This document shows positions 5,701 through 42,700 of a stretch of 64,000 bases of DNA, in pieces. Below the pieces are notes generated by a model. The model was not told the origin of the DNA. It searched no databases and was given only the letters and a program-made list of their open reading frames with translations. Positions within the stretch are counted from its first letter, which is position 1, and each line of letters opens with the position of its first letter. The stretch is from Maylandia zebra. Taxonomy: Eukaryota; Chordata; Actinopteri; Cichliformes; Cichlidae. The position numbers and the translations under genes were made by a program. The stretch is taken from NCBI RefSeq assembly GCF_041146795.1, contig NC_135182.1:6279509-6343508 (forward strand), in the 5' to 3' direction.

Positions 5701-8700
5701 ATGTCCTGTGTGACAGAGCTCAGGTCTGGCATCTCCGGGGTGGTTGGCTCTTGGTAGTGTGCTCTTATACGAGGTGTCCCCAAGCTGAACTCCTGGGTGA
5801 GTCCATCCAACTCCAGGCTGTTGACATTGGGCTCCTTAGCCACCTTTTCATTCTCGCTGAACTTCAGGATTTTCCCATTGCTCTGTAAATGACAGGAAAA
5901 ACTTTGACCTTTAAACATGTTTCATTCACATTTTGATAAATCTCATCTGTGCACAGGAATGAAAATCAAATGAGCAATTTTAGCTCATTTTTGACTTCAT
6001 GTAAAACAACAGAATTTGTTTGCTAGTAAGATGCTTTTAATTTTTTTTATTACACCTTTTTTCTTAAAAATTTCTTGTGGTGAAAAAATATTTTGATATA
6101 TTATGATGGACTGAAAACATTTTTTTAGAAGCTATATTAGTCTGTTACTATAAGAAGGAAGTTTCCCTTCTGGAGATTACAGTTCATTTTATTTAACCAA
6201 CCTTTCATAAAATCTAGCCATACAGTGGGGCAAAAAAGTATGTAGTCAGCCACCGATTGTGCAAGTTCCCCCACTTAAAATGATGACAGAGGTCAGTAAT
6301 TTGCACCAGAGGTACACTTCAACTGTGAGAGACAGAATGTGAAAAAAAAATCCATGAATCCACATGGTAGGATTTGTAAAGAATTTATTCGTAAATCAGG
6401 GTGGAAAATAAGTATTTGGTCACCTCAAACAAGGAAAATCTCTGGCTCTCACAGACCTGTAACGTCTTCTGTAAGAAGCTTTTCTGTCCCCCACTCGTTA
6501 CCTGTATGAATGGCACCTGTTTGAACTCATCATCTGTATAAAAGACACCTGTCCACAGCCTCAAACAGTCAGACGCCAAACTCCGCCATGGCCAAGACCA
6601 AAGAGCTTTCGAAGGACACCAGGAAAAGTATTGTAGACCTGCACCAGACTGGGAAGAGTGAATCTACAATAGGCAAGCAGCTTGGTGTGAAAAAATCAAC
6701 TGTGGGAGCAATCATCAGAAAATGGAAGATATACAAGACCACTGATAATCTCCCTCGATCTGGGGCTCCACGCAAGATCTCATCCCGTGGGGTCAAAATG
6801 ATCATGAGAACGGTGAGCAAAGATCCCAGAACCACACGGGGGGACCTGGTGAATGACCTGCAGAGAGCTGGGACCAAAGTAACAAAGGTCACCATCAGTA
6901 ACACACTACAACGGCAGGGAATCAAATCCCGCAGTGCCAGACGTGTTCCTCTGCTGAAGCCAGTGCATGTCCAGGCCCGTCTGAAGTTTGCCAGAGAGCA
7001 CATGGATGATACAGCAGAGGATTGGGAGAATGTCATGTGGTCAGATGAAACCAAAGTAGAACTTTTTGGTATAAACTCAACTCGTCGTGTTTGGAGGAAG
7101 AAGAATACTGAGTTGCATCCCAAGAACACCATACCTACTGTGAAGCATGGGGGTGGAAACATCATGCTATGGGGCTGTTTTTCTGCCAAGGGGACAGGAC
7201 GACTGATCCGTGTTAAGGACAGAATGAATGGGGCCATGTATCGTGAGATTTTGAGCCAAAACCTCCTTCCATCAGTGAGAACTTTGAAGATGAAACGAGG
7301 CTGGGTCTTCCAACACGACAATGATCCAAAACACACCGCCCGGGCAACAAAGGAGTGGCTCCGTAAGAAGCATTTGAAAGTCCTGGAGTGGCCTAGCCAG
7401 TCTCCAGACCTCAACCCCATAGAAAATCTGTGGCGGGAGTTGAAAGTCCGTGTTGCTCGGCGACAGCCCCAAAACATCACTGCTCTTGAGAAGATCTGCA
7501 TGGAGGAATGGGCCAAAATACCAGCTACTGTGTGTGCAAACCTGGTAAAGACCTATAGTAAACGTTTGACCTCTGTTATTGCCAACAAAGGTTATGTTAC
7601 AAAGTATTGAGTTGTATTTTTGTTATTGACCAAATACTTATTTTCCACCCTGATTTACGAATAAATTCTCTACAAATCCTACCATGTGGATTCATGGATT
7701 TTTTTTTTTTTTTTTTTTTTCACATTCTGTCTCTCACAGTTGAAGTGTACCTCTGGTGCAAATTACTGACCTCTGTCATCATTTTAAGTGGGGGAACTTG
7801 CACAATCGGTGGCTGACTAAATACTTTTTTGCCCCACTGTATTACATCTGACTTGTCATTTTGTTTGCCATAAAGCCGTGAGGATCTCTGGTTAAAAGTA
7901 AATGCTTTCCTGTTCGTCTTACGCTTTGTAAAGAATTTCCCAAAGCAGACTCTAGGTTGGGCATCACTGGCAACTGCTTGTCCTCTAAACCCGTGGTGGA
8001 TATATCGGGCACATCATATTCCCAGGTGCGTTTGAAACCAGCTGCCCTGTTACAAGGTGGGGATGGAAGATCCAAGGTCTGGGTGTCATTATCCGTTTGC
8101 ATAACGGATGGCTCAGGCTGCTGTGTGCTCTAAAAAATTAAAAAGGTGATGTGAAATTAAAATGTCAGAAACAAAAACACACACAGTTACATTTTATTTC
8201 TTACCTTTTTGGTACTGACTAGTCTGTTCACGTACGGCGTTTGAAATGCTGGGACTTCGGGTGTGGCAGGTAGGTTGCCAGGGTGACAGGGGAATTCTGG
8301 GACACCAGTGCCTTGTGCAGTTGGAGACGAGTGACCGTTTGTCTTTTTGATCTTGAATCCCGGGGTACAAAACACAGGCGGCTCTGGTGATTCCAGCTTT
8401 TCAGCTGAAGGTAATCAAAACAATGTCACAGGAAGATATTTAGAACCATTTCACTGCAGTGCTTTCTCTTAACAGCCTGGTGCCGTTTCTCTACATGTGC
8501 TACTTTTATTTTTCAAAATACTAGGTATTTTAAATACATAGTATAGAATTTTTAATACCTTCAGGTGGCATCTTTGAAAAACAAGCAACATTTCAGATAG
8601 AAAAATGGTGCACTGACAAAGCCTTGAGCTGTTTAATAAAAACAAATGTAGTTCCCGAGTACTTAAAGCTGATCATTTTCTATGAAAAGCTCGTTTTGGT

Positions 8701-11700
8701 CAGTGTTTTTTTATTTCTCTTTTGGACGTCAGATTTCGCTGAACAAAATGTTCAGTACACTTTTTTTTTCAGATCCAAGTAGTGAAAAAATCTGCACAAG
8801 TGTGATGTGGAAACTTGTAGTCTCCACTGGCTAAACGCTGGGGATTTTGTATCATTATTAAACTTAAGACAATGAAAACATAACCATATTCAAACATGCA
8901 CTTTTTAATTAACAGGCATCAGAATATGTCATGACATAAGATTACTTACAACTTACTAATAAATAAATAGTAAGATATTTTAAATAGTTTATAACACTCG
9001 AAAAAACACTGTTTAGAAAATGTAAGATGAAAATAAATGCAAAGGGAAACATCTGATCATAAACTAAGTGCTGGATAAAGTCATGCAAGAAAAAGACAAC
9101 TGAAGAAGAGAAACATCTTGTTTCCTGAATAGTAAAGACATCCGATTTCTTTACTAAAGATGTATACTTTATACATTTGTGTGAAAAAAACGTTTTCACT
9201 GAACTCTGTTCAGTCCTGTGAAAAGGTGAGTACACCGTTCCACAGAAACTAAGATCTTAAATAGCAGCTAATCAAATAGCATTCAGGCAGGGTGGTTATT
9301 TGGGATCGTTTTGCAGACACAGGTCCTGGACACCTTGAAGTCATTCATCGACCATGAATTTCTCTGTATGCCAAAGGATTCTAGAATCAAATGTGAGACC
9401 ATCTGTCCGACAGACAAAGCTTGGCTGATACTGGGTCATGCAAGAGGACAACGATCCCAAGAATATCAGCAAATCAACAACAGAATGGCTGACAAAGAAA
9501 AGAATCAATGTGTAACAATGGTACAATCAAAGTGCAGACCTTAAGAGAGCGGTGCATAAATGGCCACAGACTTGATGTTGTAAAGAAGAGTGGGCCAAAA
9601 TTTCTCCAGGACAAACTGACAGACTGATAAAGTTATACAGACAATTACTTCAAGTTATTGTCTGTATATTTACTTCAAGTTATTACTTCAAGTTATGGGT
9701 CTAGACGTGTCTACAAAGTACTGAATCATTGGGCGTACTTAGTTTTTAAACAGGACAGCGTAGAGTTTTGTGAAAACTTTCTCTTTTCCATGAGTGTAGA
9801 TGACAGTCACCTATTGTGGGGTGAAGAAGAGCTATGAGGTTGACAGTTTCATACCTTTAGTCTGCAAACTGTCTATTAAACCGTTCACTGGTGGTTCAGT
9901 TGTGTCCTGTAATGGTCTGTTGAACAAGAAGAGACTCATAAAGCAGGAAAAAGCAGTTTTACACAGTAAAGTCTTAAAGGACCTGCAGTAGTAACACTAC
10001 AAACCCTGAGTGTGGCCGACAGGGGTCATTATAGTTCATACCACTCTACCTTGGTTGGTTCTCAGTCTTCTTGAACAGATTCATGGTGAAGTCATTGTTC
10101 AGACACATTGTGTGCTCTGTGATGCCAAAGTCGTGCATCTGGGGTGTTTGGAGTTCGTAGTCATCCATTCGCAGGTTACATTTGGGGGTAATGGGCATGG
10201 GCGATGGTAGAGATGCTTTGAGTGAGGGTTGAGGAAGGTTCATCTCAGGCATTGGGGGAACTTCTGAACACCACTCAGTCCCAGCCAGAACTCTCCTTAG
10301 GTGCAGTTCAGACAAACCAAAATCAGAGAGCTGTGGAGTTCGCAGCACATCAGTGTTGGGCAGCTCTGGTTTTGGAGCCATTGAGGAAGGATTCCCTCCA
10401 TCCTCCTCCTGATTTTCCTCTTCTACTGAGTCGTCATCTGCTTCTTCATCTTTAGCCTCCTCCGCCTGATCTTTAGGCTCTATACAAGAAAAAGTCACAA
10501 TAAGAAAACCATAAATGCATGTCGCTTTTCTTTTAAGTGAAAAGAAATCATTACACGTGATTACCAGTGTTATGTAGTCGTTTTGCCATTGTTAATACTT
10601 ACTGGTTGATCTCTGGGTGTCACAGGGAGCTTGGTAACCATAGTTCTCGCAGTGTCTCTTCAGCCTCTCAATGTCCTTGAAGACTTTCTGGTCCATTACT
10701 CTACACGCCTTAATGAAGCTGCTCGCCTCATTATTCTTTGCTTTCTGCTGAGCCAAGGCATCCTGGATCTGTCCCTACCCGAGAAGAGACTAGAAGTGAT
10801 GAGCACTCACCATTCAAAAATGAACCGCCCGAACAATTTACAATATTAGTCTTCAATAAAGATATTGCTATGAATAATCGGTTTATAAATGACACACAGA
10901 TATTCCTTATGATGCTTGAAATAAGCGTCAAGTTAACAGAAGTCAAAGACGTGGAAAACCTTTGGCAGCTAAAGACTTTATATTATTCTCACTTCAGTGG
11001 AGAGTTCAACAATAGCAAAATGGTTTTACCTGCAGTAATACATAACGGGTAGTAATTTTGTAGGTAAAATCAATAGCGTTTTGTACGCAGTTACACAGCA
11101 CAGAAATGCAATTTAATTTTTATGCCTTCTGAACAAGTGCACTCAGGCATTTCAAATGACAAGACTTGCTTTTATAACGATGCAGGCCAAACTGTATTTA
11201 AAAGAAAGGCAATAATTAGAGAATAACCACATTTATCTTGGCCTTTTGAAAGGGTCTGTCTCTGAGTTGGGAGCCACAGTATAAAGGATGTAAAAGTGTA
11301 ATAGATAATCGTGCATCACCACAGTTCTACCTTTAATATGTTAAATACAAAGTTTGCCTAAAGTAAGATTTTGAGTGCAGGACTTTTGAATGCATTTGGT
11401 TAATTTTACATAACGCATTTAACGATCTTTGTTGCAGCTGCTGATAAAATATTGCATTGTCGCGCTAACCTGTGTATATGTCGCCACCTTTAGATGCAAT
11501 TTAAAAAAAAAAAAAAAGACGTGCTAACTTTTACCTTCAGGTTCCCTACGTCACAGTTCAGTTCATGATAGGCTCGCATCGCTCTGGCTGTCTTTTCTGA
11601 AATAGAAAAGAATTCATATTGAGATATGTGCGATGACTTCACTGTAAGCGATTTAAGCAGCCTGTGTGTCAGCGTGTTTCTCACCGCTCTCGTCGTCGTC

Positions 11701-16000: not shown

Positions 16001-17801
16001 TGTTATAAACAAAATGTAAGACGGTGTTAAAGGAAGTGTGCACACTTTGCGCTGCTTGTCCGTTTAGAACAGTTGTTTTCTTCAGTCATCACCGCAGTGA
16101 AGAGAAGAGTTTCCATCCAAGAAAGTCAAATCAGTCCAGAGTCCACTTATTAAAGGGCTTAAGTGTGGATTAGCCTTAATGCTGAAGCAGCTTCTGCTTC
16201 TGAATGAGTAAATTTGTTTGCACGTTTCTCTTTTCAAGGACTGATTTGCACAAGTGCACTTATATAAAAACACGGCGAGCTAACTGATGTGAAATGATAG
16301 TTGCAAAATGTGCCTTCATGGTGTGGTTTAAATAAAAATGAGAAAACGGAGCTTATTTTGCACACAGTGTATATAGCTGCAGGGTTTACTTTGAGAGAAG
16401 GACATTTTGAACCAACTATAGTAATCAAAGTCATGGCTGCAAATCATGTGGTCAAGCCTGAAGAGCCCGACCTTGCTAATCAAAGAAACTACAGCCAAGT
16501 TTCTTTAACCTTGAAGAACTTATCATAGATAAACATATTTTAGGTGATAACGTAATCTGCTGTGATTATGCTTCTGGTGCTGAAACAAGAACCAAGGCGA
16601 TGTCATTTTGTCTTAAACCAGACAAAATCTTACATCTACATAAGATAATTACCCAAACCTGAAATAATAATGCTTTGATTATTATTAATATTATTATTAT
16701 AAGAACCCTCTGTGTTGTCACTAAAGGAGCCTGACTAACACTGGATATCCAGATAGTGCTTTTTTGACTCATAAAGGTCAGGTTTGTTAAAGCCTTGCGA
16801 GCAGTGATTTTATTATGAATTACAGCTGTTACTCAGAAAGGTGACTGGGTCACAGGAGAACAGTCAGTTTGTCATGTGCATTGTCATTTTTTTCAACATA
16901 CAGTGTTAGGGTGAGGTGTATTTACACCATTTAAAGGCAAAAAGCATGTTTATTAAAGAGCTGTTTTGTTCCTGTGGTTCCACTTTCTCAGACTAAAATG
17001 CTGGCTAAAGGATTTATGGGTCATGGACACTTTCACATGTTCACGTTCTTTTTCTCCTCTTTCTTCTGACAGATAAATTTTGTCCTGGGCACTGGTCTGC
17101 TCTGCCTCTTCACTCAAGCTTCCCTAACAGGAAGAGACCAGGCTCTGCTTATCAAGAGCTGGTCTGACCGTATGGGCGCCCTGTACAGGAAAATGAAGAA
17201 CACGGGAGGTCGCTGCTTAGGCTACTTCCTGGAGCAGGCGGAAGAGGATATACGGCAGCAGCTGCAGGAGGCCGTCCACAACCGATTGCCCCCAGACGAG
17301 GCGGCAGGGAGCATCCTGAAAACCCTGGAGAAGAATTACGATTGGCTGCGCTGGGCGGTGATGCTCCACCCCGCTGTGGGACCCAAGGAGGAGGAGGAGG
17401 AGGAAGGAGGAGAAAATGAAGGTGAAGCGACAGAACGACAGCCTGGCAATTTGCTCTCCGTGGCATCTGAAGCTCCTATCCCCCATGTGGTGGCGTGCTA
17501 CCGGGACACACCCACTACACTGGATAAAAGCCGCATCCACCAGCTCATCGTGGATTTGGAATGGAAGATCCCCAACCCACCACCTGAGGTGTACGCTTCC
17601 ATAGAAGAAGACCCAGGCAGGGCTAGGCGCTACCTGGCTTCCCGCATGCTGAAGAAGCTGCAGGAGGGGTTGGGATCTGGTGTGGCCGTCCATGTTGTTC
17701 CGGGCAGGATGGAGATGAAATGCAACTTCCCTCAAGCCTCCTACTACCTCTATGAGTACAAACACCGGCTGGCCTCAGGCACCGTGTGTGTGTTTGGATG
17801 A
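13012..17801 (+). CDS. Unrecognised 391-residue protein, four coding exons
   Basis: Exons 13012-13064, 13197-13386, 14620-14823 and 17073-17801 join in frame at good GT-AG sites to give 391 residues from MAMFGKVLEPVGYM to SGTVCVFG. I do not recognise the family. The first part is helical and probably coiled coil (ELAKKNLDHIDQELGATSYG, then DFTKKETEVFLQYVQDYRLE). A hydrophobic stretch near residues 150-167 (INFVLGTGLLCLFTQASL) could be a single membrane helix or a buried helix. Then follows an amphipathic helical region with WSDRMGALYRKMKNTGG, a Glu-rich linker about residue 260 (EEEEEEGGENEGE), and a C-terminal segment with LIVDLEWKIPNPPPEVY and ASYYLYEYKHRL. No signal peptide and no catalytic motif were seen. 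The exon layout, conserved-looking codons and poly(A) signal argue for a real gene. Intron 3 (14824-17072) and intron 2 hold no recognised exon. Confidence 0.82.
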
Positions 17802-19606: not shown

Positions 19607-22600
19607 TTACACGAGTCCACCATCAGAGTTGAGCAGAGCCATTTTTTCCAAGTCCTTCCTGACATCTGGGAAGCCCTCCAGCGCATCCTGAAAGTCGTCC
19701 CAGGACAGAGAGAAACACTGGCAGTCGGTCAGTGCTTTCACTGTGGCCAGATGTTTGCCCTTGTTCAGCACACATGTCTCTGTACACACAGAAGGGTCCG
19801 TAAGACTGTGGTTAATGAGCAAATAAAATCTCATGACGGGGATGAGATCTGACAATTAATCCTAAATTAAAGCTGAGTTGTCCGAGGGAGGCCTGCTAAG
19901 CTTTAAACGTCGCAGAGATCTGCTGCCAAAAAGATTTGGAAGTGTGCACATGTAATGATGGAGAATTAAAGAAGTCAGCCAAATTGGCAAAAAAGGAGAA
20001 GATTTAATCACTTTGGTTCAACACTGTTCTTCTAAAACACAAATGGCAACAAAAAAACAAACAAATAATAAATATTCTGCAGAGGAAATAATTTGGAAAC
20101 TTTTCAAATTAAACACATGACACATGCCTAAAATTGAACCCCTAACCATCACCAGTTATTTTTTTTATTGTTTTGCAAGGCCTGTCTTAGAGCTCATGAA
20201 TTATTATTAGACACCGGCAGCAACTATATTTGAGTAAATCCAACTCACCTCCAAAGAAGTCTCCATCACACAGTTCCCTTTCATAGGAATCGGTCTCCAC
20301 AAGGACCTGGCCATGATCGATGAAGAACATGCGGTCGCCCGGGACATTCTGTCGGACGATGATGTCTCCTTCCTGGAAAACCTCGTACTGCAGTTTGAGG
20401 AGGACGGTGTTGATAAAGCTTTGATCTCTGTTCTGAAACATCGGCACGTTTCTCAGCAGCCGGCTGCACATCACTGTCACAATTTGCTGAAAAATACACA
20501 CAAATGAACAAACACAAAGCTTGGTATGACAAATGAAGATAGACGTGAGCTAAGAAACAACAAATCACACTCAGTTCAGGCAAGATTAAAGAATGAATGA
20601 AAAACAGATATTTATGTACACTGAGTGAATGTGACCAAGATACACAAAAGCATAACTGTGAATCTGTATGTATGAGGATGACATCTCATATAGATATCAA
20701 TATGAGATCAACCAAAACAAATCAATCTCAGCCAGTTTGGAGATTAGCAATAACCCCATCTATACCTCTTTGAGTGCTGAGGACACGGTGTCCATGACGT
20801 CCTTCTCATCAAACCACTTCCCTCCATAGCGAGCCTGGTAGTAGTTGTTGATGCGAAGCTGCAACTCTGGAGGGAGCTTCATGAAGGCCATGTAGTGCTC
20901 CAAACGGCTCATCTGTTGAAGATGGATAGAATATATTACATTAGATTACCATGTATAGATTATATCATAAGTTTTAAATATATTACTTGAACAATTGAAT
21001 TCAGAATAACGATAAGTGATTACTTGTCAATAAAAGTTCAATCTAACTACAAAAAGTCTAAATTAATCAGGAAAAAATTCATTTAGAAATTACATATGTT
21101 GAAAGGAACTCAATATATTTTCACTACTGCTAATTTCTATTATTTCCGATAGAATTCAGGTAGAATTGACAGAAAGTAGAGGAATGACAAAGGTTTGGTG
21201 AGCCAGGAACTAAATCATGGCTTTAGTTGCTTGGGGCATCTTAGCCAAGCAGAACGTATATACTGTGCAGTGCTTCCCCCCCGTTTTTAGTCGGTTTAAC
21301 CTGTTTATTTCTACACTGTACTTGCTGTTTAAGGAGTATAAGTGTCACCCATGAAGACCTTGCTCTTGTACTCCTTGGCCGCTGGGTCAAGGTTGGCGAT
21401 CATGGCTGTCGCATTGGCCACGAGGACGGTGTACATCAGACATCCGGACACCATGCTGACCATGACGATCCACATTTCAACATAATCTAGAGAACAAAAC
21501 AAAGACATGCCAGTGCAGTTGAGTGTTCACATCTGAGGGAGAATATAGATCATATTTCCTTTTTAAAGTGGCAGAGAAAGAAAACTTAAACTCCTAACTT
21601 GTTGGAGCGTCCATAGAGCCATAAGAGAGAGCAATCATCTGGGAGAGAGCTCGGAAAACACCCCATGAGTACTTAACGATGACCGTGGCATTCTGAAAGG
21701 AAAGGTTCAATCATTATTGTCTATTATTTATCATCGTAAGACAGGCTTCTAGGTTAACATTGTTAATTTTTTTTCTCTTTTTCTCATTATTGCATTTTTA
21801 CAGTCCTTAATTGTCTACATTGAAGACAAAGCGAGAGCTACAAAACATCTCAGTAAGCACTGATGTGTAAAATGAGCTTCACCATCAGGTTTTCTTTGCG
21901 GACCCAGCAGTCGTTGGGAAACTCCTCCAGCATAGGCACAAAATACTGGATGCATCCGTTCCAGTGGCACAGCAGGAAAATCATTGTGAAGAGAGACATG
22001 ATGCGGATGAACAGGCGAACCACCTCCAGGTTTGCATTTGACACCTGTCAGGAAAAGGGTACACGACACTTGGTCAGCGGGTAATACACAGCATTACACT
22101 GTACTGATAGAGTGTTTGACTGAGTGGACATCTTTGCAGCAGCAAACAGGGTGTACACTTGTTTTAGGGTCAGCCAGCTCTTTCTACTGTATTAAGGATT
22201 CATATTCACTCATATGAATGTTGTTGTTTTGGGGTGTGGAACAGCCATGATTTAGTTATTTATTGGGCAAGCTTGAAGGATCAATTTGACCTTTTTATCG
22301 TTCTGGTTTATTAGAACCCAGGTCTTACTTTAATAGTTTTGTTCATTGTTGAAATATACAACATTGCACGATCACTTCAATACAGCGAGGTCAGATGGTA
22401 CGAGAAACATGAGGAGCTAGGCTGTAAGTGAGCCGGCAGTTTAGTCAGATTATCTTAACCACCTCATTTGTTAGCCCTGTGATGGGTCTGATGACCTAAC
22501 TAAGGTGTACCTTGCCTCTCACCCTATCACAGCTGGCCCCAACCCTACACAAGTGGAGAGTAAAATATATGTAATGGACTTTATTTGCAAGTAAAATAAT

Positions 22601-25600
22601 GGTAATTGCAAAGGAAGGCTGAGAGAACACGACTGCTGTAAGAAGACAAGCTCAAAGTTGGAGTGGGACGTTGATGTGTGAACTATGAGGAACACGTGGG
22701 CTAATGGTTTAATCATTTTCTTGTGCCAATGTACACGTTTGATCATTCAGCTGCTTGTATTTCTAGCTTAATGTGACTTCAGAAAAAAAGATAATGTTTT
22801 TTAATAAACTCAAAATATGCTCTAAGGACAGATTTCTTGATCCAAACCTAATTTACCAGTCAGTTAAAAGCACACTACCCACAGATGCCACAAACTGCCA
22901 CAACGGACAAGAAGCTTAGTGCAACAAGAACACCTCCAAAACGCGAGCGACGTGTTGATAAAACACTACATTAACCCTCAGCCTGCCACTCTACCATGAT
23001 CTGATTCCTGAACAGAGCCCAGACTTTTGGCTGCACGATCTGTTAGAGATGAGACAGGCAGCTTTCATCAAAAGAGAAAGACAGCTAAAGCACAGCATAA
23101 AGTTTCCAGGATTTATGGGAACCCCCAACAAAACACACACTACAAACCATTTATTATTGCAACTAGATAGATAATGCGATAAAAACACCTTGCCAGAGAG
23201 ATAACAGTGTTGTTCTATATGAAACTGTCATTATATTGACCATTTGTTACATAAACCCATGTTGATTGAGCCCAGTGTTTCTGTATTTACTGTTTACTAA
23301 ACACCGACAGGCAAATTCACTTAGAAAATAAGCATATTGCCCATCAGTGCACGAGCATGACATTGCTAAGTGTCAGATTTGTCACTAGAGCCCGGTGTCG
23401 TAAAGTATCGGCAGCAGGGAGGAGAAAGGCTGATTGAATTTCAGAGGTGAGCTTTGACGACTCTCTGGCATTTAAACTTACTTTCTCCACTTCGTTGAAG
23501 AACCGGACCAGCCTGGAGACTCGAGCCAGCCTGATTAAACTGAGGATCCGCACAAACATCAGTATCCTCATCATCTTGTTGGTCTTGGAGGGGTTGTCAT
23601 CGTTGTGGTAATGTAGTCCCTGACATTGTACATTAAAAATGCTGCAATTAGAATCTTAATCCACCTCATTTGCTCATTTATAACTTTGCTTAAGTGTCAG
23701 CAACGCTTTCTTGCTTTTCTAAGTGCTAACATATACAGTACAGAAGAAGTACAGTGTTGGCTTTTCCTGCCTCTTCCTCTTTATTATTACCGCAAACAGC
23801 AGTATGTAGCCAATTGGGAAAGCTGCTATAACGTCTGGAATGAACCATGTCCTCAGGTAGCTGACTCGGATCCGCTTGATATCCAGAATTGCTTCCTGTA
23901 AAACAGAACAGAGCAGCAGAGTGAGCAGATAGATGAAGGCGCCGTTCACCATGTGCTACAATCGCATGTATAATTTAACACTCGAACTAAAACAATATTT
24001 GGCGAGTTCATCCAAAAGTAAGTGAGTGTGATGTCAGACGAGCTTGGCAGGGTTCTGAAAATGTTACAGAGGCACATGCATCAATATTTCAAGCAGACCA
24101 ACCAAGAGTAAATCTGGCAAAACCAGATGTGCGGTCGAGAATAAACACAGGAAAAACATCACAGATGGGCCATTAGGAAGACAGAAGTCACGAAACACGA
24201 GCCAGCGAAAACAAACAGGACATATTGCGCATAATACTTAATTTGAAATGTTATACTTCTCATTCATCCACAACATCATAATCCCCGTTACAAAATCAAA
24301 CAGCAGTAGCCGTTTTCGCCCGTGTCCAGGAGCTAAGGGGGATGCCGTTAATCTAGCCTTTCGTGTATCGAGTAGATTACAGATGGTGCAGAGATGGAAT
24401 GTATGCGCTCGTCTGCACCCGGATTATAGACTTCCAGATTGTGTCTGAAAATAGAATATAGCCACTCTCACCTCTGCGTCCTCGGTTATGATCCCCGTCC
24501 GGAAATTCAGTGCCACATCTATTAGGAACAAAGTGTCTGAAAACACGTTAAAGCCTTCCCATGCCAGCCCGCTGTTTCCGTCCAGAAAGGCTATCTCCAT
24601 GGGAATCCCAATCAGGTTCAGAAATGTGATGACCATCATGATCAAGATGTAGTAACTCCTAGGGGAGGAATGACCACAAAAACATATGTGTGACTTTCCA
24701 GTAACTCTTATTTTCCATGTCACAGTGTAGTGGAAAGTCTCACATCATTTGCTAAAAGAACTCATTAGACAGCCGGTAAGGCAAGCCGATTCATGCACAC
24801 TAAATACTCTGATAATGTAAGTGTACATCTCCTCAGCCAGGGTACGATTGCCAGGCTCAAATAACTCTGCTCTCTGATCTCAATTGTTTCATTCCCTCTC
24901 TAATTTCCCTCCATCTGATCATCTTACAGACTAATATTAGCAATCCTGCATATATAATACAAAACCAGCTCTCTGTGAAAACGCGTTCCTTAAAGAAGTC
25001 ATTTGATAGGTCCGTATTTTTCTTCTAACTCGGTTATTTCTTATAAACCTTGGATCGTTCTTTTAGGTTTCTTGCGTCACTTTAAAATCTACTTGTTTCC
25101 TTTTATCCTAAAAATAATGCATCTGATTGTCGGCTTTATTTCTAAGGCTTTCTCTATTGTGATATCAGAAGAAAATCATTCTCATTGCCAATTAATGACT
25201 GGATGAATAAATACTGTTTAGCATTTAACACTTTAAAAGTTTAACCTAGAGGACTCAAGAGGAATTCCTCTTCTGTCTCATCCAACAACGGTGTGATTTA
25301 TGTAATATGGTAAACTTATGGTACTCAGTAAATCTATACGCAGTATCTATATTTGTTTTCATTAATGCACTTATTCTAATGATATTCAAAGGAACAAGTT
25401 AATGCATTGCACCTTTGTATTTCCGGTAAATACTCCAAAAACTGAACTATAACATGTATAATTATTCATTAAATGTAAGGGAGAAATTAAGTAATCGGTT
25501 AACTATAAAAACTTGCAGAGACAGACCAAAGAAACAGTGGAAGTGATATGCATGACTGACCTCAATCTATCAGATATATTAAATACCTCATGAGGCTGAA

Positions 25601-25771
25601 AGGGTGAATGACAAAGACTCCACTCTCCAGCTGTCGGATACACTCCTTCTCCACGGCCACCTCGCTGCCGTACACGTACAGGGACTGTCTGTTCAGTTGC
25701 GGGAGAAGCAGGGCTCTCCATCCACAGTTGGCTTTGGTGCATGCTACGTTGGGACCTTTCAATTTCTCCAT
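19607..25771 (-). CDS. hcnl1: HCN-like channel HCNL1, predicted hyperpolarisation-activated proton channel
   Basis: Ten exons on the minus strand: 25771-25587, 24658-24472, 23895-23791, 23619-23482, 22044-21883, 21692-21599, 21486-21359, 20912-20766, 20486-20249 and 19779-19607. They give 518 residues with matching phases. Layout: S1 about 64-87, S2 96-114, S3 138-158, S4 174-200, S5 212-232, pore 272-290, S6 292-320, HCN-type C-linker ([13 protein letters not shown]) and a cyclic-nucleotide fold about 396-495. S4 reads [21 protein letters not shown]177, M180, R183, R189, R192, R195, so methionine replaces the second HCN arginine. The filter is SYG (282-284) instead of GYG. In the nucleotide pocket FGE is kept, but the phosphate-binding Arg-Thr is His471-Leu472. 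The protein ends soon after the fold, with a short C-helix. In zebrafish HCNL1, sperm protons are reported to pass through the voltage sensor at such a methionine while the pore is silent; function here is inferred. Confidence 0.93.
22450..22545 (+). repeat. Short dispersed LINE-tail fragment
   Basis: GTTAGCCCTGTGATGG...GGTGTACCTTGCCTCTCACC followed by CTATCACAGCTGG is a diverged copy of the repeat seen in better shape at 55334-55522. It lies in an hcnl1 intron. Confidence 0.5.
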
Positions 25772-30809: not shown

Positions 30810-33729
30810 ACCACTTCAAACAGTCCCAGTGTTTTAATTTTTCTAGAGAACTAGAGTCATTTGTAGCGATTAAATACCACACTAGAACATGTTGCTGTGA
30901 GCTTTAATATAAATATAGAATTGCAAGAACTTTGAGTGACACACATTTATCAATATTATTATTCATACTGTTGAAATGAATCTTGCATGTGATGGGTGCA
31001 CACTGAGTTTCCATGCCACTAGTTGAATGTGCTTTGACAGCCTCAATATATGTTTGAATAGAGTCAGTGTGGCGTGAAAGTGGGCACCTGACCTTTCTGT
31101 GAACCATGAAAAAGCCGGACCTTACTGTGGTATCAGCGTTACTTGTTTATACTGGGTTTAACGGCTTTCCCCTTTTGCCAGGGCAGCACTTTTTAGGGCA
31201 GCTCAATTTAAATAAAATATCTTCCAGATTTTCACTTGCATACAGCGTCAGGTGTGATGTAGTAGTCATGTGAATTGCTGATTGTGTGCATTTTGGTCTC
31301 TTGCAGTGTGCTGCTGTGTGTGGAAGGTGACCCTGGGTATTTGTTTCTTCACTCCCCCCTGCACTTCTTATTTATACCTTTTGTTGGATTAACTGTGCGA
31401 AAACTATTTTTTCAAGTCTGCAAAATCTGAGAAATTCTGATGTGACATTGAATAAAAATCCTATGCAATAAACTTGTTGTGAAGGTTTTTTTTATTAGTC
31501 GTGCACTCATCTTAAGGTTTGCATTGAAGATCAGTTCTGCCAAGGGAAACGGTTGCTTGCCACAGTTGCTGTTCCTGGTATGCACTTACAGTTAAAAATA
31601 ACTCTTGCCCCTGCAAAGTCAATACTTTGCATATCTGCATTCTTTTTCCACAGTGTGTCACTGTCACTGAAGTGTGCTTGGCTGTGGACATCATTTTCAC
31701 ACTTTGAAAAAACACTTGAAAGGAATGCGATAGTGTATTGGAAAACACTCCTAATTCACTTCATATTATGCCCACACTGAAGGGAATATATACATACATA
31801 TTATATGTATACCATTACATATATAGGACCACTTTAAACATAGTAAATGTCCCTCAGTAGTCATGTAGGAAGTGTTTCTCACATCTCTGTAGGCTGACAA
31901 GTGTAAAGTAAAATTATTAATATAAAAGATTCAATACTGTACACAGGCTGTATAAACAATCTTTCCAGTTAACATAAGTTATGTTACAATTTACATTTTC
32001 TAATTTAATGTGTTTTATAATTTTGCAGTTTGAAACTATTATGTTATATATATATATGTTGCCAGTCAGCAGTTTAAAAGTCACCACAAATCATGTCAGA
32101 TTCTTAATTCAGTGCATGCTTATACTAACTTAAAATGAGAGATTATCTGTTCACTTAGCTAACATTCATAATTTTATGTCTGCAACAAATTAGAGAAATC
32201 TTACACAGAAGGGTGCTCATAGAGAATGCTAAAACCAAAGCTCTTTTTCTCAAATTAAAAATGAAGCAATTGAGAAATTCGCCTACATTTATTGCTTTCT
32301 TCTTTTGCACGTGATCCACCTCTCCGACAAATTGCACTGAAAACACACTCTCCACCCTGACGGGAGGAAAAAGCACGTCTGGCTGTAACTTTTATTGCAC
32401 TGAATTTAAAGTCCTTTTTTTGATTACATTATCTCTGATCATTTAGTACTGCAAACAGTGTGTCTCCTTATTGCCAATATTGATGTTTGGCTGATATATT
32501 GGTTCATCACTCACCGTACCCTAAAGGAAATCATAGACATAAGAAGCCCAACTAGCTTTCATCTGCTTTTATTCACTAGGATTCAGATTGCTGTCCTCCT
32601 GTTAACCAGAGACAACTGGCAGGGCAACAGCGACACAAACAGCCAAACGGAGAGAAAGAAAAATCAGTCAAAAACTGGAAGCACTGTTGCTGAATATATG
32701 GAGTTTTGTATTCTTGTACCTTGAAAATCAACACTTCTTAATATTAATTTCCATTGCAAAGTTTTAATTTTAAAATAGTATTCATTCTTATTTTCACTGA
32801 GCAATATTCATATAGACTGATATTTAGTCCCTGTGAGCTGTCCACACACTGAGAGCCGGATATGTGAGGCGATGTTGGTGTGTGTTTATACCTGAAATCT
32901 GACCTGAGCTGCCATCCTACTTATTGCAGTGCCTCTAAATATGCACCAGCAGAGCCACACTTCCTGCGAGCAAACTGGACTCAGTGAAGCCTGTGTGAAA
33001 CTCTGAACCCCCCTGGAGGAACTTCTTTGTCAGATAAAAAAAAGTGGGTGACACTTTGTGAGTCTCTCTGAGATACTACTTGTTATAGTCCCTCTTCTCC
33101 CTCCTGTTTCCTGCCTCCCTCTCCCCTCTCTGTCTCTCTTTCTGTTATGTTAAGTAGCAGGCCTGCTTTCTGTCTGCCACTCTGTCCTCCTTGGGTTTCA
33201 ATTCCAAACATGGTTATCCTTCTAGGGCCCTATCGACTCCCCCCCTCGCCTCCCTTATCCCTTTCTCTTCCAGCTGGTGGCTCTACGGTGCAGGCCAGAG
33301 GGTGAGAAAAAGAGACAGAAAAGCACAGCAAGAAAGACTACGGGAAAACTTGGAAGGGAAAGACGGGAGAAGCCAGAGGAGAGAGGAAGGGACGCATGAT
33401 GAGAGGAGAAGAAACAGAGGAAACCCATTCCAGCTGTGTTTCTGCAACAAATAGAGTCGTGATAATATCTTCATGGTGAAGAATTTTCTGCCGCTGCACG
33501 CCAAGGGAACAAGCAATTACCTCTGACATTTTTGGTCAGTATCAGGCTGTTTATTTTTAATCAAGCTGTAATCCAAACAGATGATCTAGTAATAGGACAG
33601 AAACAGCACTTAGTTTGAGTGGAAAACAAGTCTTATTGGTCCCTTCTTAAAAAAACCCCCCCACAAAACAAACAAACTTTGCTTTGTGCACCAAGAACCT
33701 TTCCAGAACTTATTCGAAAAGATTTAAAC
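30810..33729. other. Spacer between cox17 and popdc2
   Basis: No coding exon is recognised. A pyrimidine-rich stretch at 33085-33270 ends in TCTCTTCCAG, and a possible donor (AGAGGGTGAG) follows near 33300. This may be a 5' UTR exon of popdc2, unproven. The rest is A/T-rich with no identifiable element. Confidence 0.4.
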
Positions 33730-36700
33730 ATGAGTGCAGACAACTCTAGCCTGCTGGACAGCCTGCTCTTTCCCCCTCTCTGCGATGGCTGGAGCAACAA
33801 CACAGAGGGAGCCATCTACCAGTTGGGTAACACCATCCTGTTTCTGGGCTACATGGGAGGAAGCGGGGCCTACGGGTGCCTCTTCATCTTCGGCTTCCTT
33901 TGTCCCGGTTTCCTGTGTCTTCTTCTGTGGGGATTGCTTACAGTGTGCGGCCTGGATGTCTTCACCTGGAACCTGCTTCTACTGCTGGTCTGCTTGCTTC
34001 AGCTCTGTCACCTCCTTTACCGGCTGCACCAGGAGGGCATACGAGGTGAGGAGCTGGCCTCCCTCTACCAGGCGGTCTACCTGCCCCTGGGCGTGCCTGT
34101 CCAGGTGTTCAAGGAGATTGCAAAGGCTTTTGAGAACAAGGTGCTGGAGCTGAAAGCAGGAGAGACTTATGCTGTGGAGGGAAAGACCCCCATTGACCGG
34201 CTCTCCTTTCTGCTTTCTGGAAGGTGAGTGAGTGGGCAATGTGTTTGTGTGTCTGTGTGCACAGACGATTACACTTTGACACACATCTCCAAGATGGCAC
34301 GCACCTAAAGTGTGGCCGTAAAACACATGTAGCACTACATTTTATTATATCGTCTTGTGATGCACCACTTTAAGTTGCCAAGATCCCTGCTTTATGACTC
34401 CTGGTGGAGGCGTTTTACAGAAAAATCAGGCTAATGAAGTGGCAATCAGCAGGAAAAAGCTAATCCGAGAGCTAATAAAAAGAACTGACACAGTAATATT
34501 CATACATAAAAATACAAACACAACCTATCTCAAAATGTTGTGAATACACACATAGCTACTGCTTTTACTTTTTTTTGGTGGTATTCATATCTTCGATTTT
34601 GCTAGCTGTAGTAGTGTTGTAGAGTGATTGTTATCACGGATTGTATCTTACTGTATCGCATCGAGGGTTCTGTGAATCCCCAAACACCTGCATGATAAAA
34701 GAAAAATACTTGTAGGTAAAGCTCTTTTTAAAAGTAGAAATAAGCTGCAAACACCAAATCTGTATCACCTTTGAGGGTGATGCAGGGAACATGTTGGAGA
34801 CTGTGAGTCTTACCAAAACTGCCATAGCTGTGTGCAATGAACTTGCAGTCTCATTGTCTTTGAAACGGTTTCTCTAAAGATGGTGGCCACCTGCATTTAG
34901 CTGAAACCAGTTGCAAATCAAGCAATATACCAATAAAATGGCAATTGGGCAGTCGTTCTGTGATAATATGGCGATTAAATATGAAGAATCAGCAAAAATC
35001 CCAAAATGATACAGGGTCTCAGTGGTCTTTTTGCAATATATTGGAACATAATTGCAATATAACCAGTTGGCAACCAGTTGATTCAGCCTTTCTACAGTAT
35101 TTAAAACATTACTGGTGCAAGCTGACTCAGACTAATTGCAAACTGTTGGCAGTTTGTCTGCATTTATAAATTAGAAGGCAACGATTTGCAAACCTTCTCT
35201 AATGAATCTGAGTGACTGCAGTCAGTCAGAGCTGGACTGTAGCTGTGTTGAGACAGGTTGCCTTCCACCAGGTGACCTGTCCATTCACCTTGCAATCAAA
35301 AGTGGTTGACCATTTGGTCTGTGCAACTACTTGCAATCAGTCTCTTTAGTGTAATCAAAGGGCAGCTACCAATTTCCAGTTGCATTGAGGTTGCTGTTCT
35401 ATTTTTAATCCAGTGTGACCGAGCCTTTGCCCAGTTACAGAGCCACTTGGCATGGAACAACAATAACATTCATTAGAATTCAATTTTCACTATTTTTCAA
35501 GCTCTGATTTCTTCTCCTTTTTCTCTGTTTTTTTAATTTGGAATTTATCTGCTTAAATGTCCTCGCTGGTTAGTAAAAAATGATGAAAATGAGGGCAATG
35601 ATAATAAAACAATACAGTAGTTTTGTCTGTTAATTAAAAACACAGAGCACCCTAACCAACAGTGATGTTAAAAACAAAAACTTTGCACCTTTATTATTGG
35701 GCCTATATGCACATGCAGGCTAACAGTTGCAAAGATGCTGTAGTATTCTTTATTTTCGATGTAGAAACTCAAATGCATGCAGACACAATCTGCATGAGTG
35801 CTTTGCATTGTTGTGCAGACATTCTGTCCACATACTGCCACAGAGTGTTGAGATAATAAAGTCACTTTAGTAGGCAAAGTTAATAAGAGTGCTGTAACAG
35901 ACCGAATAAATGAAGCAGAAGGTGCTTAAAGAATGTCAATTTATACCGCAGGCTTACATTTTTCCAATACTGGGAACCCCCCCCCCCCCCCCCCCCCCCC
36001 CTCCCCCTCCATAACATCACATAAATATTTAAAAGTAAACTTAATTAATGACTCTGAGACTGTTGGCAGTACATAATAACCGTCAAAGGAACTCTGTCCT
36101 CTTCCTCCAAACATCCTCAAAGCAGAGCTGCATTAGATCTCACAGTCCTGGAAGCTACACAAGAGAAATGTTGTAAACAGAGTATTTTTGTCTGTGACTC
36201 ACTGGTGTGTCGTCCCCCTGCTCACTGCCAGCTGGTTAAATCATATCTTTGTGCTCCCGACAGGAGAGTGACACTGACTGCTCCTCTTACCTTAAATTAA
36301 ATGTTGGCCACGGTGCTGACAGCTCTGAGTTTACAAGCCAAATTTGGAACTACGAGCAAATGAGCTAAACGTTTCCTTTCTTACGCTGTGAATTCTTGGC
36401 AAAGATTTCCGTTTTATTTTTCTATTCATCTGCATCTTCTGATTTGCCAGAAACACGTATTATTACTGTTGTGTTGGAAAGCCTTTCTTTTCTGTGCAAT
36501 TCATGAGTAATTTTCAAAGCCAGATGCTTGATATGGTTGTATTCCACAGCCAAATACATATGTGACCTCTCATTTAAAAACAGTGGACATAAATCTGCAT
36601 CTTTTGGGAAGATTTGGAAAGGTTTAGCAAGTTGTAGGAACCTGGTTTTATGTATTTGCTCCCCTTCAGGAACAACAGTTAATCAAATCAAATCGGGGAA

Positions 36701-39700
36701 ACAGAACTCTGGAGTAAGCCTGTGTCCACAAAATCTGGACCATATAGTACATATGCCAAAGTGCCAGCAGTGCACTGACACTTTTAAAATGGGATTCCCC
36801 AATTGAAATACCTTTGGTTGTGCCTTGAGGGTAATTAATGCAACAACACTCTGGAAAATAGCTTGCAATTAACACCTATTGTTTTGAAGTGTCTAAATAA
36901 ATGCTTCTAGCAGTTTTAGCACACAGTAATAGGCTCTAGAGAGAAATCCATTAACATAATAACAGTGATACAGCTTTTTCCAATACAAATGTCTTTGTAA
37001 TCTGGGCTTGCCTTAGCTTGCCCTCATCAGGTTGTAGTGACTTCAGATTTGACTTTAGATTTAGTCAGATGACCGAATATACACGATAGTCCCATCATTG
37101 ATATGAACACGTTCAGCCTACAGTGAATGAAGAACAAAACACAATAAAGTTGTCGTGCATAGAGAAATAATTGGTCCTTGAAATGAAAGAATCATGTGTT
37201 AATTTAAAACAAACAAACAAACAAAGTAGTAGTGGTGCCGCAGCACATGTGGGAATGACTTGAATTAAAATCTTTTGCAAGAAACCTCAGGACAAAAAAT
37301 CCCTGCACACGATTGTTTATTAGAGCTGCTAATTCTAAGTAATAGGTCCCGTTTCTCAACCTATTTGAAAACTTACTTCATTTGATTAGTAATAACATAC
37401 TTAACCTCTGTCCACTAAAGTCCGGTAGCTTGTCTGCGGCAGGTATTTCTGCCCATATCCACCTCCAGCGTCTTAGACCTGCTGTGACCTCCAACTCTCT
37501 CTGCTGTCATTATCACTTCTTAATCCCGTTTCCCTTTTTAACCTTGTATCTGTTGCTCTCTGTCTCAGGATCAACGTGTCTTTGGAGGGCCAGTTTCTGC
37601 ATTACATCCACCGACACCAGTTCCTCGACTCTCCCGAGTGGGAGTCTCTTAGACCAAACGAGGAGGGAAAGTTCCAGGTACAGTGTCTTTATGCATGCTC
37701 AATCATCCAGGTAAGGAAATCCCAAAAATCTGATTCTGTTCACCTGAACTTGGCATTTTTTAGCGGGTGAAACGTTTCGTCATTCATCCAAGTGACTTCT
37801 TCAGTCTCATCTGACTGCAGGTTTCCCCAGCTGTACATTTGCATAATGACCAACACTAGCATCACTGACCAACAATGGGCTGTGAGGTCAGTTTCTTGAT
37901 GCTAATTGCCCAAATTGTCATGACCATTGATCAACAACCAAATACAGGACACTGATGCAGTTTCTGCTTAATTCTGTAAATCTCAGGCGTGGAAGTAAAA
38001 TCAACTTGAAAAGCTGTCACTGAATGAGCTTGAATGAGGAACCAGAAGTGGATATCAAGTTGTGTTTTTTGCCCTCCATCACACTCAGCATCTCACTGAT
38101 AAGCTGAACAGGGAAAAGCAGGGAAACATATCCTGTTGCATTTGATTGGTTCAGTTAAAGTAGAAACAAGGCCTCGAAATCTTGTTGGACGTTTGGGTGG
38201 TGCTTTAGTTTTAAGGGGCTTTCAGACAGGGAGGGTGTGCCATCTGATGAGGTAGTCTAATACAAGCAGAGGTGTATGGGCTGCTTTCATTATCATTTAA
38301 TTAGCAGTTTTTTTATTTATTTATTGTGTTTAAAATGTTACAAAACGGTAAAATATAATAAATGTCACCCTGAGGACATTATTTAATTAGATCAACAGTT
38401 TAAAACCAAAAGATATTTAATTTACAATTATATTTAAAAGTATCAGCAAATACACTGATCATTTTAAAACAATTATAATTGCACTTGTAATAAATAGTTA
38501 TATTTTACGAATTACATCTAGTAGCTTTTTTTTAACCTTCAAGGCTACATTACAAACCCAACTGTCAATGAATGAAGTAGAGTGGCAAGGGAGATCTTAT
38601 TCGCAGCTCTTCGGATACAGGAGCTTGGTGAGGAACTCTCAGTGTGACATTTTAACACAATTACCCATTTAGCAGGCTCAGAGTAGTCCATAAACTCAAT
38701 ATAATTCACAAAGTGACCTGCTGTGCAGGCAGTAGTTATTATAAGATAGTCAGTGTGACTTCTGATTTATGCATTAGACTTTGATAAATATTGGCTTGTT
38801 ATTTTGTTTAGTCTTTTAAAGCACAAGTCATAAGATCGGGGTGGCGCTGACCGAGGAACTCAGGAATACTCACATCCAACTTATCAATAATGAGTTAGCC
38901 ACAAATGAAGTGTACCTATTAATTATTCTACTTTAAATGTGACATTAAAATGTAGAAAATGTTCTGCAATAAACAACTGACTGAGACGATTAACTCCTAA
39001 AAAAATGAAGTCACAAAGCTACGGTGACTCTGAAAGATCAAACGCACTGCAACCGAAGAAAACGTTGTCAAATAGAAAACACTCCAAATGCAAAGGAAGC
39101 TGAATAAAAAAAGATGAATTAATCACAGCATAAGTGACAGAACAGGCTAACACTAAACGACTGATAGCAAAGATGTTTCCACAGTATTACTTCTCTTGTG
39201 TTTTGTATGCTTTGGTAGCGTTTTTCTGTTTGCTGGTGTTTTCTTAGGTTGCAGTGTGTTTGACCTCTCAGGCCACCAAACAAATCTGAAACACGTCCAT
39301 TTTCTTACAGACATCTATGCAACTGGACTCTCTTTGCAACTAGGTGTCGCCCCCTGATGGTCACTAAAAAGAATCGAGGTTTCAGGCACTTACACTTTTT
39401 CTTTCTTTCTTTCTTTCTTTCTTTCTTTACATTTATTTTACCTGGAAGCTTTGTCAGTATGCGGTGCTTTGGGAATGAGAATATGTCGGTGAGGCTATTG
39501 CTCCAGTGCTTGCAAGCAAAACCAGAGCCAGCTTCTAATGACGTTGTTCCATGCTGCTAATAGTGGTCAAATGTTCTAAAGTGCCTCTTTTATACACTGA
39601 TAGTATGGTGTGTCATTCATTCTGCCCAGGTGACCTTGACAGCAGAGGAAGATTCCCGTTACATCTCATGGCGTCGCCGCCGCCTCTACATGGTGATATC

Positions 39701-42700
39701 AAAGGATCGCTACATCGCCCGTCTCTTCTCTGTAATGCTGGGACACGACATTGCTGAAAAGCTCTACAACCTCAACAACAAGCTCTACATCAAAAGTGGC
39801 GTGTTGTTGGACATCCGCCTGCCAAGCCTCTACCACGTGCTGGCTCCTGCCTCGCAGGGCAGTGAGGGTGGCAGCGGTAGTGATGGAGGCCCTGCCAGGG
39901 AGCAACAAACTGAACAGCAGTGCCAAGACCCAGAGCTCACCTACCAGATGCCTGACAGATCTAAACCTCAGCCTCTCCAGCCCAAACCTCAGGGACCAAT
40001 GAAGACAGCCGTGGAAGAACCCTTGCATGACCCTTATCACCCTTCCTGGGCGTCTGACCCGGAGCTGCCCATTGGTGAGGACTCCACCAGCCTAGTCCTG
40101 GAGGACTTTGCTGATGTGGCGGGCTCCTTAACGGATTATGGCAGTGAGAGGGAATATTTGAGGTAGAGAGGGAGGGTGCTGGAGCTAACACACGGGGGCA
40201 CCACTTAAGCTACATGTAAGTACCGCACCTGGGCGAAGGGTTGCATGGGGTGGTGTGTGTGCATGGAAGGCTTGTGGTACACATTTGTTACTAACCCGGC
40301 TTTGTGTTGCAATATAATCATATTAATCATTATAATGATAATGACTGATATGATAATTAATATAATCATTATTTTATTCAACATTAGTGGACCTATTACT
40401 CTTACTCCTCATTTTTGTCATATATATGTTGGTAGATGGCGGATGCTCTTATTAAACAAGTCTCAAATGAGAAAGTCATCAAGTAATCCTTGTGAGTCAA
40501 AAGTTGAGGGCAAGAAGTTTTACCCATCGTGGATCTTTATGATGTCAAAGAGAGAACATATTCATAATATGGTTATCGTAGTCCCACCCATGTGCTGTTT
40601 AAACCTTCTGTTTGTGAGGAGTAGCCAGTCAGGCACTAAAACAACTTGTTTCAGAGCGTGGATGAACTGAGGGGCTGCACAAAGGCCCAGTGAAAGATAC
40701 AAGGATACAGATGTGTTTGGATTTTTGTAGGGTCTTTACCTTTCAAGATAAAGCACCTTGAGATGACTGCTGTTGTGATTTGGTTCCATATAAAAATAAA
40801 ACTGAACTCAATTCTAAAGTTTATATCCAGGCATCATGGGCATGGTAATTTTGGGCTTGATTTTTTTTTTCCAGAGTGGAATGATTGTACAGCACACGTC
40901 TTTAATGACAATCAAAAACAAGAATTGGGTGCACAACTTTGAATTTTGGATACATACAACCCATTGACAAGCTTCTGGCACAGTTCTGGTTGGGTATTTG
41001 ACCACCTTTCTGGCTGATTTTAAATTGCTTAATATCCTGGCATGGATCTGACCATTAAGCATGAGGTTGAGGTTGAAATCCATTCCAGAATCTTAATGTT
41101 AGCCTGATTTATCCCTTCCAAGTTGAAGTTGAAGAATCTGGAGATACTCTTCCTTGTTTATTATTTCACATGATGGTCCAACCATCTTGGTTGACAGTTG
41201 GTAAAGTGTCTTTAGGTCTGAAAACCTTGCGACTCCTGTAAACATACCTCGTCATTGTGGAAAAATAGTTTAATCTTTGTCTCGTCTGAACAAAAAACTT
41301 TGGCTTGTTTATGTGAGAAGCTGCAAATTTCAGTCAAGCTCATTTTGGAGCAAGGCTTCTTTTTGGTCATGACCCTGACCCTGAGATGAGAGGAAGTTGG
41401 TTAACAGTTTGCAGTTTACTTCCAGAGCTTGGCAACATGATGACACATTGAATAAATGGTCTGGTTCTTATATATTGCTTCCACTTTCACTTGAGCACTC
41501 AAAGTGCTCTGTAACTTGAAAAAGGGGAACAGCTTGTACTTTGGTACTGTTCTTTGAACTGATGATCCTGGAATCTGCAGTTGTTTAGAAATTGCTCCAT
41601 TAAGTTTCTGGAATGGCTTTCCCAAAGCCTTGACCTCAACTTTTGAAATTTGTTGAATACACTTAAAAACTGGGTCTGTGCCAAGACACCAACCAATTTC
41701 AATGAACTCTACCAAGTCTGACAAGAAGAGTGGTCACATATCCACATAGTTATATGTGAGAAGCTTATTGATGGCTACCAAAAGCATCTGGTTGAGATTA
41801 AACTTTTAACATTTAACCAAACATTAGTAAACGGTGCATGTATACTTTTAACCATGTGTTGATTAGAGAAAAAACAAAAAACAATCCATCCAATTCTTGT
41901 TTTGTAAAGACATTAAAGAGCTATTCTACCCTGGAAAAATAACAGTTCACATCTGCCTCGACATCAAGCCCATGTTGAGTGTATGTAAACTTCTGACCAC
42001 AACTATAAATATGAATTATTTTGATGTGTAAACAAGGAAAATCTACTCTAGTAGAGTCTCAGAATAAAAATATGAGTCCATTTGAGTGTTTGTTTTGGTT
42101 GTACATTCATTTTAAGTATTTCCATTTTCACTGCATTTAACAAGAATTAGTGTGGTTTTAATTTTACCTTATTTACATTACGACAGATCAACAGCTCAAA
42201 TGACCCAAAAACACATTCAAAGGTTAATTATATAAAATCTGACAAGTCTCAGCCATCCAATATTCTGCCTAGATGTTCATGGATTAATAACAATAAATTA
42301 TAATATTATTGTTAATAATTATATATTATATATTAATTATATATAATTATATTATTAACACACTGAAGGGAAGGGAATAATAAATACTTTTACTTTGAAA
42401 GTGCATAAAAGTTTTACATGTAAAGTTATACATATATGACTTTGTATTACATATGTATTCTTTTGTGTTAAAGTACATATGTGAAAAGTATGTGTGTGTA
42501 TATATGACCTAAGAATATCCTAAAAAGAAAATCACATTTATGAGGTTCAAAGTTCATTTTTTGACCTCAGAAACAGGAGCTTGGAAATTCAAGTGAAGGT
42601 GTTTCTACTTAAACATAAAAAATCAAATCAAAGGTCTGTAATTCCTTGACAACTGGACACGTTTTTCTATTATTAAATAGATACATGTGCATTATTAGCA

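Follow-up and report, generated by a model that had tools for sequence, protein, structure and literature searches.

The locus analyzed here raises the question of whether the cichlid Maylandia zebra possesses an intact gene for HCNL1, the HCN-like channel described from zebrafish, and whether a methionine in the S4 segment of its product would let protons pass through the voltage sensor. The window, i.e. the whole stretch of 64,000 nucleotides from contig NC_135182.1 that was analyzed, contains no N (count of 0). An intact hcnl1-type gene comprising ten exons was found on the minus strand at 25771-19607. All introns (9/9) are of the GT-AG type, the number of internal stop codons is zero, and the spliced product has exactly the 518 residues given in the initial annotation of this DNA. 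The Pfam analysis of this product resulted in Ion_trans_N, Ion_trans and cNMP_binding, which corresponds to the architecture of HCN channels.

The exons, all on the minus strand, follow the order of the protein segments. The start codon, the HCN-type N-terminal domain and H56 are located in exon 1 (25587..25771), S1 and S2 in exon 2 (24472..24658) and S3 in exon 3 (23791..23895). Exon 4 (23482..23619), which is preceded by AG, followed by GTAAGT and translated into 46 residues, comprises the S3-S4 loop with H162 and H164 as well as the S4 voltage sensor. S5 and the turret with C251 are encoded by exon 5 (21883..22044), the pore helix and the selectivity filter by exon 6 (21599..21692), S6 by exon 7 (21359..21486) and the C-linker by exon 8 (20766..20912). 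The first part of the cyclic-nucleotide-binding domain (CNBD) belongs to exon 9 (20249..20486), and its end to exon 10 (19607..19779), which also contains the stop codon.

The arrangement R177-x2-M180-x2-R183-x5-R189-x2-R192-x2-R195, which had been read in S4 by eye, is found exactly in the translation of exon 4, where K171, K174 and R198 are additional basic residues of the same stretch. M180 is encoded by an ATG codon at 23557..23559 on the minus strand. In the alignment, which is free of gaps within 15 residues of this position, the column is occupied by Arg258 in human HCN1 and by arginine in HCN4. The earlier statement that HCN1 and HCN2 have arginine here was thus borne out for HCN1 and extends to HCN4; HCN2, of which the C-terminal part was the only one present among the best 60 of 161 PDB matches, lies outside the alignment at M180. 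As a control for chance, the seven further HCN genes detected in this genome (L014, L016, L018, L019, L021, L022 and L039) were compared, and arginine occupies the M180 column in every one of them (7/7), so that the methionine is special to the hcnl1-type gene among the eight genes compared. Unlike in classical HCN1-4, the series of arginines and lysines ahead of the conserved serine in S4 is broken by M180.

The published link between such a methionine and proton conduction, on which the initial annotation had drawn, agrees with two reviews (PMC10651576 and PMC13095418) in the parts consulted here. In HCNL1 the third S4 arginine is replaced by a methionine, and changing this methionine to arginine abolishes the proton current (PMC10651576). 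In the zebrafish protein M169 sits at a conserved HCN1 arginine, and with arginine at this position the proton current is suppressed and a gating current is still detectable (PMC13095418). The HCN1 arginine is numbered R248 in this review, as against R258 in the human numbering used here.

The comparison with zebrafish HCNL1 was based on published residue numbers (PMC11700363, PMC13095418) and not on the full sequence; orthology therefore rests on features. One offset, +11, leads from K163, M169 and C240 of zebrafish to K174, M180 and C251 of the cichlid protein, the methionine of which is thus shifted by 11 positions towards the C-terminus, and H50 corresponds to H56, a histidine at the inner end of S1, at a differing offset of +6. 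Hence four of the seven zebrafish residues with published numbers fit, two of the four being common to HCN1 and HCN4. These two are C251 and H56, which therefore give the register and not the orthology. An alternative register, in which zebrafish M169 would equal R177, was rejected: M169 and C240 are 71 residues apart, as are M180 and C251, and the distance from R177 to C251 is 74 residues. The distance from R258 to C329 in human HCN1, counted by hand on the alignment, is also 71 residues; this argument assumes that zebrafish C240 is the turret cysteine. No histidine counterpart of zebrafish H43, H78 or H82 was found at offsets 3 to 13, with the sole exception of H43, which at +13 would meet H56, a position already taken by H50. 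The cichlid protein thus differs from zebrafish HCNL1 in that H43 and the histidines H78 and H82 of the S1-S2 loop are unmatched and that H162 and H164 are located in the S3-S4 loop.

Changes relative to classical HCN channels were also found in the pore and in the CNBD. In the alignment, the human HCN1 segment CIGYGA-QAP is matched by ten residues of the hcnl1-type protein, in which S282 takes the place of G360, the YG is kept (SYG instead of GYG; S282-G284, 21626-21618) and one residue is inserted directly after the filter. The human HCN1 motif GRRTAS reads GKHLAT in exon 10, so that both arginines, Arg548 and Arg549, which are shared with HCN4, are gone and are replaced by K470 and H471 (19753-19751). 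The second of these arginines, at the place of H471, is the one essential for binding of cyclic nucleotides. The RRTA of HCN1 and HCN4 is likewise present in three CNG-type genes of the cichlid genome. Among the HCN paralogues, GYG is present in both genes read at the filter (L021/L032 and L039) and the CNBD arginines in the one gene read there (L039); the corresponding exons of the other paralogues were matched by search, and their sequences were not part of this comparison. A pore that is non-functional owing to changes in the filter region and a CNBD devoid of the essential arginine have been named as traits of HCNL1 (PMC10651576). In both respects the cichlid gene resembles zebrafish HCNL1, the zebrafish side being known from the description in the consulted part of this review and not from the letters of the filter.

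Concerning the relation to classical HCN channels, the best solved relatives identified with phmmer are HCN4 (2.8e-139), HCN1 and HCN3, and none of the best 60 of 161 PDB matches is named HCNL1. The initial annotation had regarded a classical HCN channel as best match as an argument against HCNL1; because no entry of this name is among these 60 matches, the argument is not strictly applicable. Identity amounts to 208/490 with HCN4 and 203/490 with human HCN1 (about 41-42%), compared to 425/488 (about 87%) between HCN1 and HCN4. For S1-S4, the protein is 42-46% identical to nine HCNs (the seven of the same genome, human HCN1 and the PDB HCN4), which are 73-98% identical to one another. Many columns of the voltage-sensing domain (VSD) that are otherwise invariant differ, among them those of I66 in S1 (24648-24646) and G153 in S3 (23811-23809), both aspartate in 9/9 of the HCNs compared, and those of K174 and M180, both otherwise arginine. 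In an S1-S4 tree of the gene, the nine HCNs and two outgroup exons, which by our reading of their sequence would be KCNH-like, the hcnl1-type gene groups with the HCNs against the outgroups (100/100). With 3.7 changes per column it sits on a very long branch, and for this reason its placement inside the HCN group is left unsettled by the tree, which was not used for orthology.

The intron positions were compared approximately, as inferred from the ends of search matches. Matches of the HCN paralogues start or end near the introns of the hcnl1-type gene at residues 62, 205, 259, 333, 382 and 462 (six places). For the introns at residues 159 and 291, no sign was seen in the match ends of any of the seven HCN paralogues, and a possible counterpart of the intron near residue 124 was found only in L039, which has a break near 129. 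Domain order, the identity of 41-42% over 490 aligned residues of HCN1 and HCN4 and the roughly coinciding introns at six places are therefore shared with the HCN family, and the hcnl1-type gene differs from it by extra introns within VSD and pore, the S4 change from arginine to methionine, the change of GYG to SYG with one insertion, the CNBD change of RR to KH and the loss of two VSD aspartates. L039 itself (C11:22865000-22872000) is a compact HCN paralogue whose voltage sensor, unlike that of the other six, is interrupted near residue 129, probably by an intron.

Several other explanations of this gene have to be weighed. It could be a divergent classical HCN channel whose central pore remains permeable to Na+ and K+ and in which the methionine does no more than lower the gating charge. 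The HCN domain order, the six roughly coinciding introns and the YG retained in the filter would fit such a channel; however, the glycine of the filter was replaced by serine, a residue was inserted behind it and the CNBD arginines were lost together with the S4 arginine, and at least seven other HCN genes already exist in the genome, which makes this explanation quite unlikely. An assembly artefact or a pseudogene, in which ATG would be a sequencing error for AGG, can be envisaged in that the two codons are one base apart and a single assembly was examined. It is nevertheless judged highly improbable, since the ten exons are free of internal stop codons, all nine introns are GT-AG, there is no N, and the protein carries further HCNL1-type changes at several other sites.

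A different possibility is that the voltage sensor is leaky and passes cations unselectively, or that it moves without any conduction. In Hv1, proton selectivity uses an acid in the middle of S1, and the S1 of the protein described here has no mid-helix acid. Non-selective cation currents through altered sensors of other channels have been tabulated (PMC10651576), but the same table also contains exchanges of S4 arginines in Shaker and Ci-VSP that give rise to proton currents, and the current of HCNL1 itself is described as highly proton-selective (PMC10651576; also PMC13095418), so that a leaky or silent sensor appears unlikely.

Instead, the gene is probably an intact teleost HCNL1 orthologue, the voltage sensor of which is predicted to pass protons inward upon hyperpolarization. 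Support for the name hcnl1 used in the initial annotation comes from the methionine in place of the third S4 arginine, the altered filter, the absence of the CNBD arginines and the uniform offset relative to the zebrafish residue numbers; the proton-channel part of that annotation stands as a prediction, and an inward proton channel in Maylandia zebra can reasonably be inferred from M180. By analogy with the work on zebrafish HCNL1, on which the proposed tetramer, silent pore, proton selectivity, gating direction and role in sperm are modelled, four subunits would assemble as in HCN channels, with the central pore silent because of its altered filter and without gating by cyclic nucleotides. 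Hyperpolarization would drive S4 inward. The gating pore of a classical HCN sensor would be closed off by its third arginine; with the neutral M180, an aqueous gap may be left open in all four voltage sensors, along which protons could flow inward. As a further suggestion, the loss of the VSD aspartates at I66 and G153 might widen the same proton path, since one S4 arginine and two acids are lost and the gating pore would consequently be wider and less charged.

The proton route proposed here from the sequence would run through the voltage sensor as in Hv1, a channel without a pore domain or a CNBD. A histidine in the S3-S4 loop is a further likeness, H162 and H164 being found in the cichlid protein and the zinc-binding H193 in human Hv1 (PMC11700363). 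In contrast, Hv1 opens on depolarization and its current is outward (PMC10651576). In zebrafish HCNL1, the exchanges H78A and H82A shifted the external zinc block only modestly (PMC11700363), and the loss of H78 and H82 need therefore not remove this block.

In zebrafish sperm, HCNL1 is linked to the K+ channel CNGK, and a feedback loop is thought to operate between the two. The animals from which CNGK is known include zebrafish, trout, gar, coelacanth and marine invertebrates (PMC4749565). The genome of Maylandia zebra (962 Mb, 63 contigs) was searched with PF00027, with the hcnl1-type protein and with HCN4, yielding at least 32, at least 61 and, with E up to 10 for HCN4, at least 88 matches, respectively; all three numbers are minimum values, only the best candidates having been scored. 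Three loci that were read (C2, C3 and C16) look CNG-type, and the position and match pattern of the other loci listed suggest CNG, KCNH or kinase-type genes. No HCN/CNG-type gene with four tandem repeats, i.e. CNGK-like, was among the matches listed in these searches, which had no positive control and may miss exons, and an absence of CNGK from the genome is only suggested. It is conceivable, if doubtful, that a fish of the cichlid type keeps a working HCNL1, as predicted, without CNGK, that another hyperpolarizing channel drives it, and that the external zinc site may have been relocated, leaving the S1-S2 loop for the S3-S4 loop, its place in Hv1. This scenario becomes less probable because CNGK channels are listed for the sperm of seabream, a marine teleost (PMC9603624), and because only the best genome candidates were scored.

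In the parts of the literature consulted, HCNL1 is described from zebrafish only, and a second intact fish sequence reveals the residues that accompany the methionine. No study of a cichlid HCNL1 was found in a literature search on HCNL1 and cichlid sperm ion channels, to the scope of which the original PNAS paper, which may list species, did not belong. As zebrafish M169 is called evolutionarily conserved (PMC13095418), HCNL1 sequences of other species are already known. The gene thus appears to be an ordinary but well-supported addition to a known family, with a predicted proton current. The questions it raises are whether protons pass without the external histidines of zebrafish, whether the two lost VSD aspartates play a role, and whether HCNL1 acts in sperm that may lack CNGK.

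Further features were observed in the window outside the channel gene. Upstream of it and on the opposite strand, two frames of a Popeye-domain gene (POPDC1-3) are located at 33619-34227 and 39630-40166 (plus strand), of which the former exceeds the Pfam cut-off and the latter narrowly misses it; Popeye-domain proteins are a cAMP-binding family. Downstream of the channel gene, likewise on the opposite strand, a frame of 209 residues at 17172-17801 (plus strand) gave no Pfam match. The same applies to a frame at 10046-10498 on the minus strand, which we take to resemble SKA3. An uninterrupted Tc1/Sleeping Beauty-type transposase frame of 340 residues was detected by Pfam at 6588-7610 (plus strand), and an uninterrupted frame of 992 residues with endonuclease and reverse transcriptase domains at 56095-59073 (plus strand) represents a LINE-type element.
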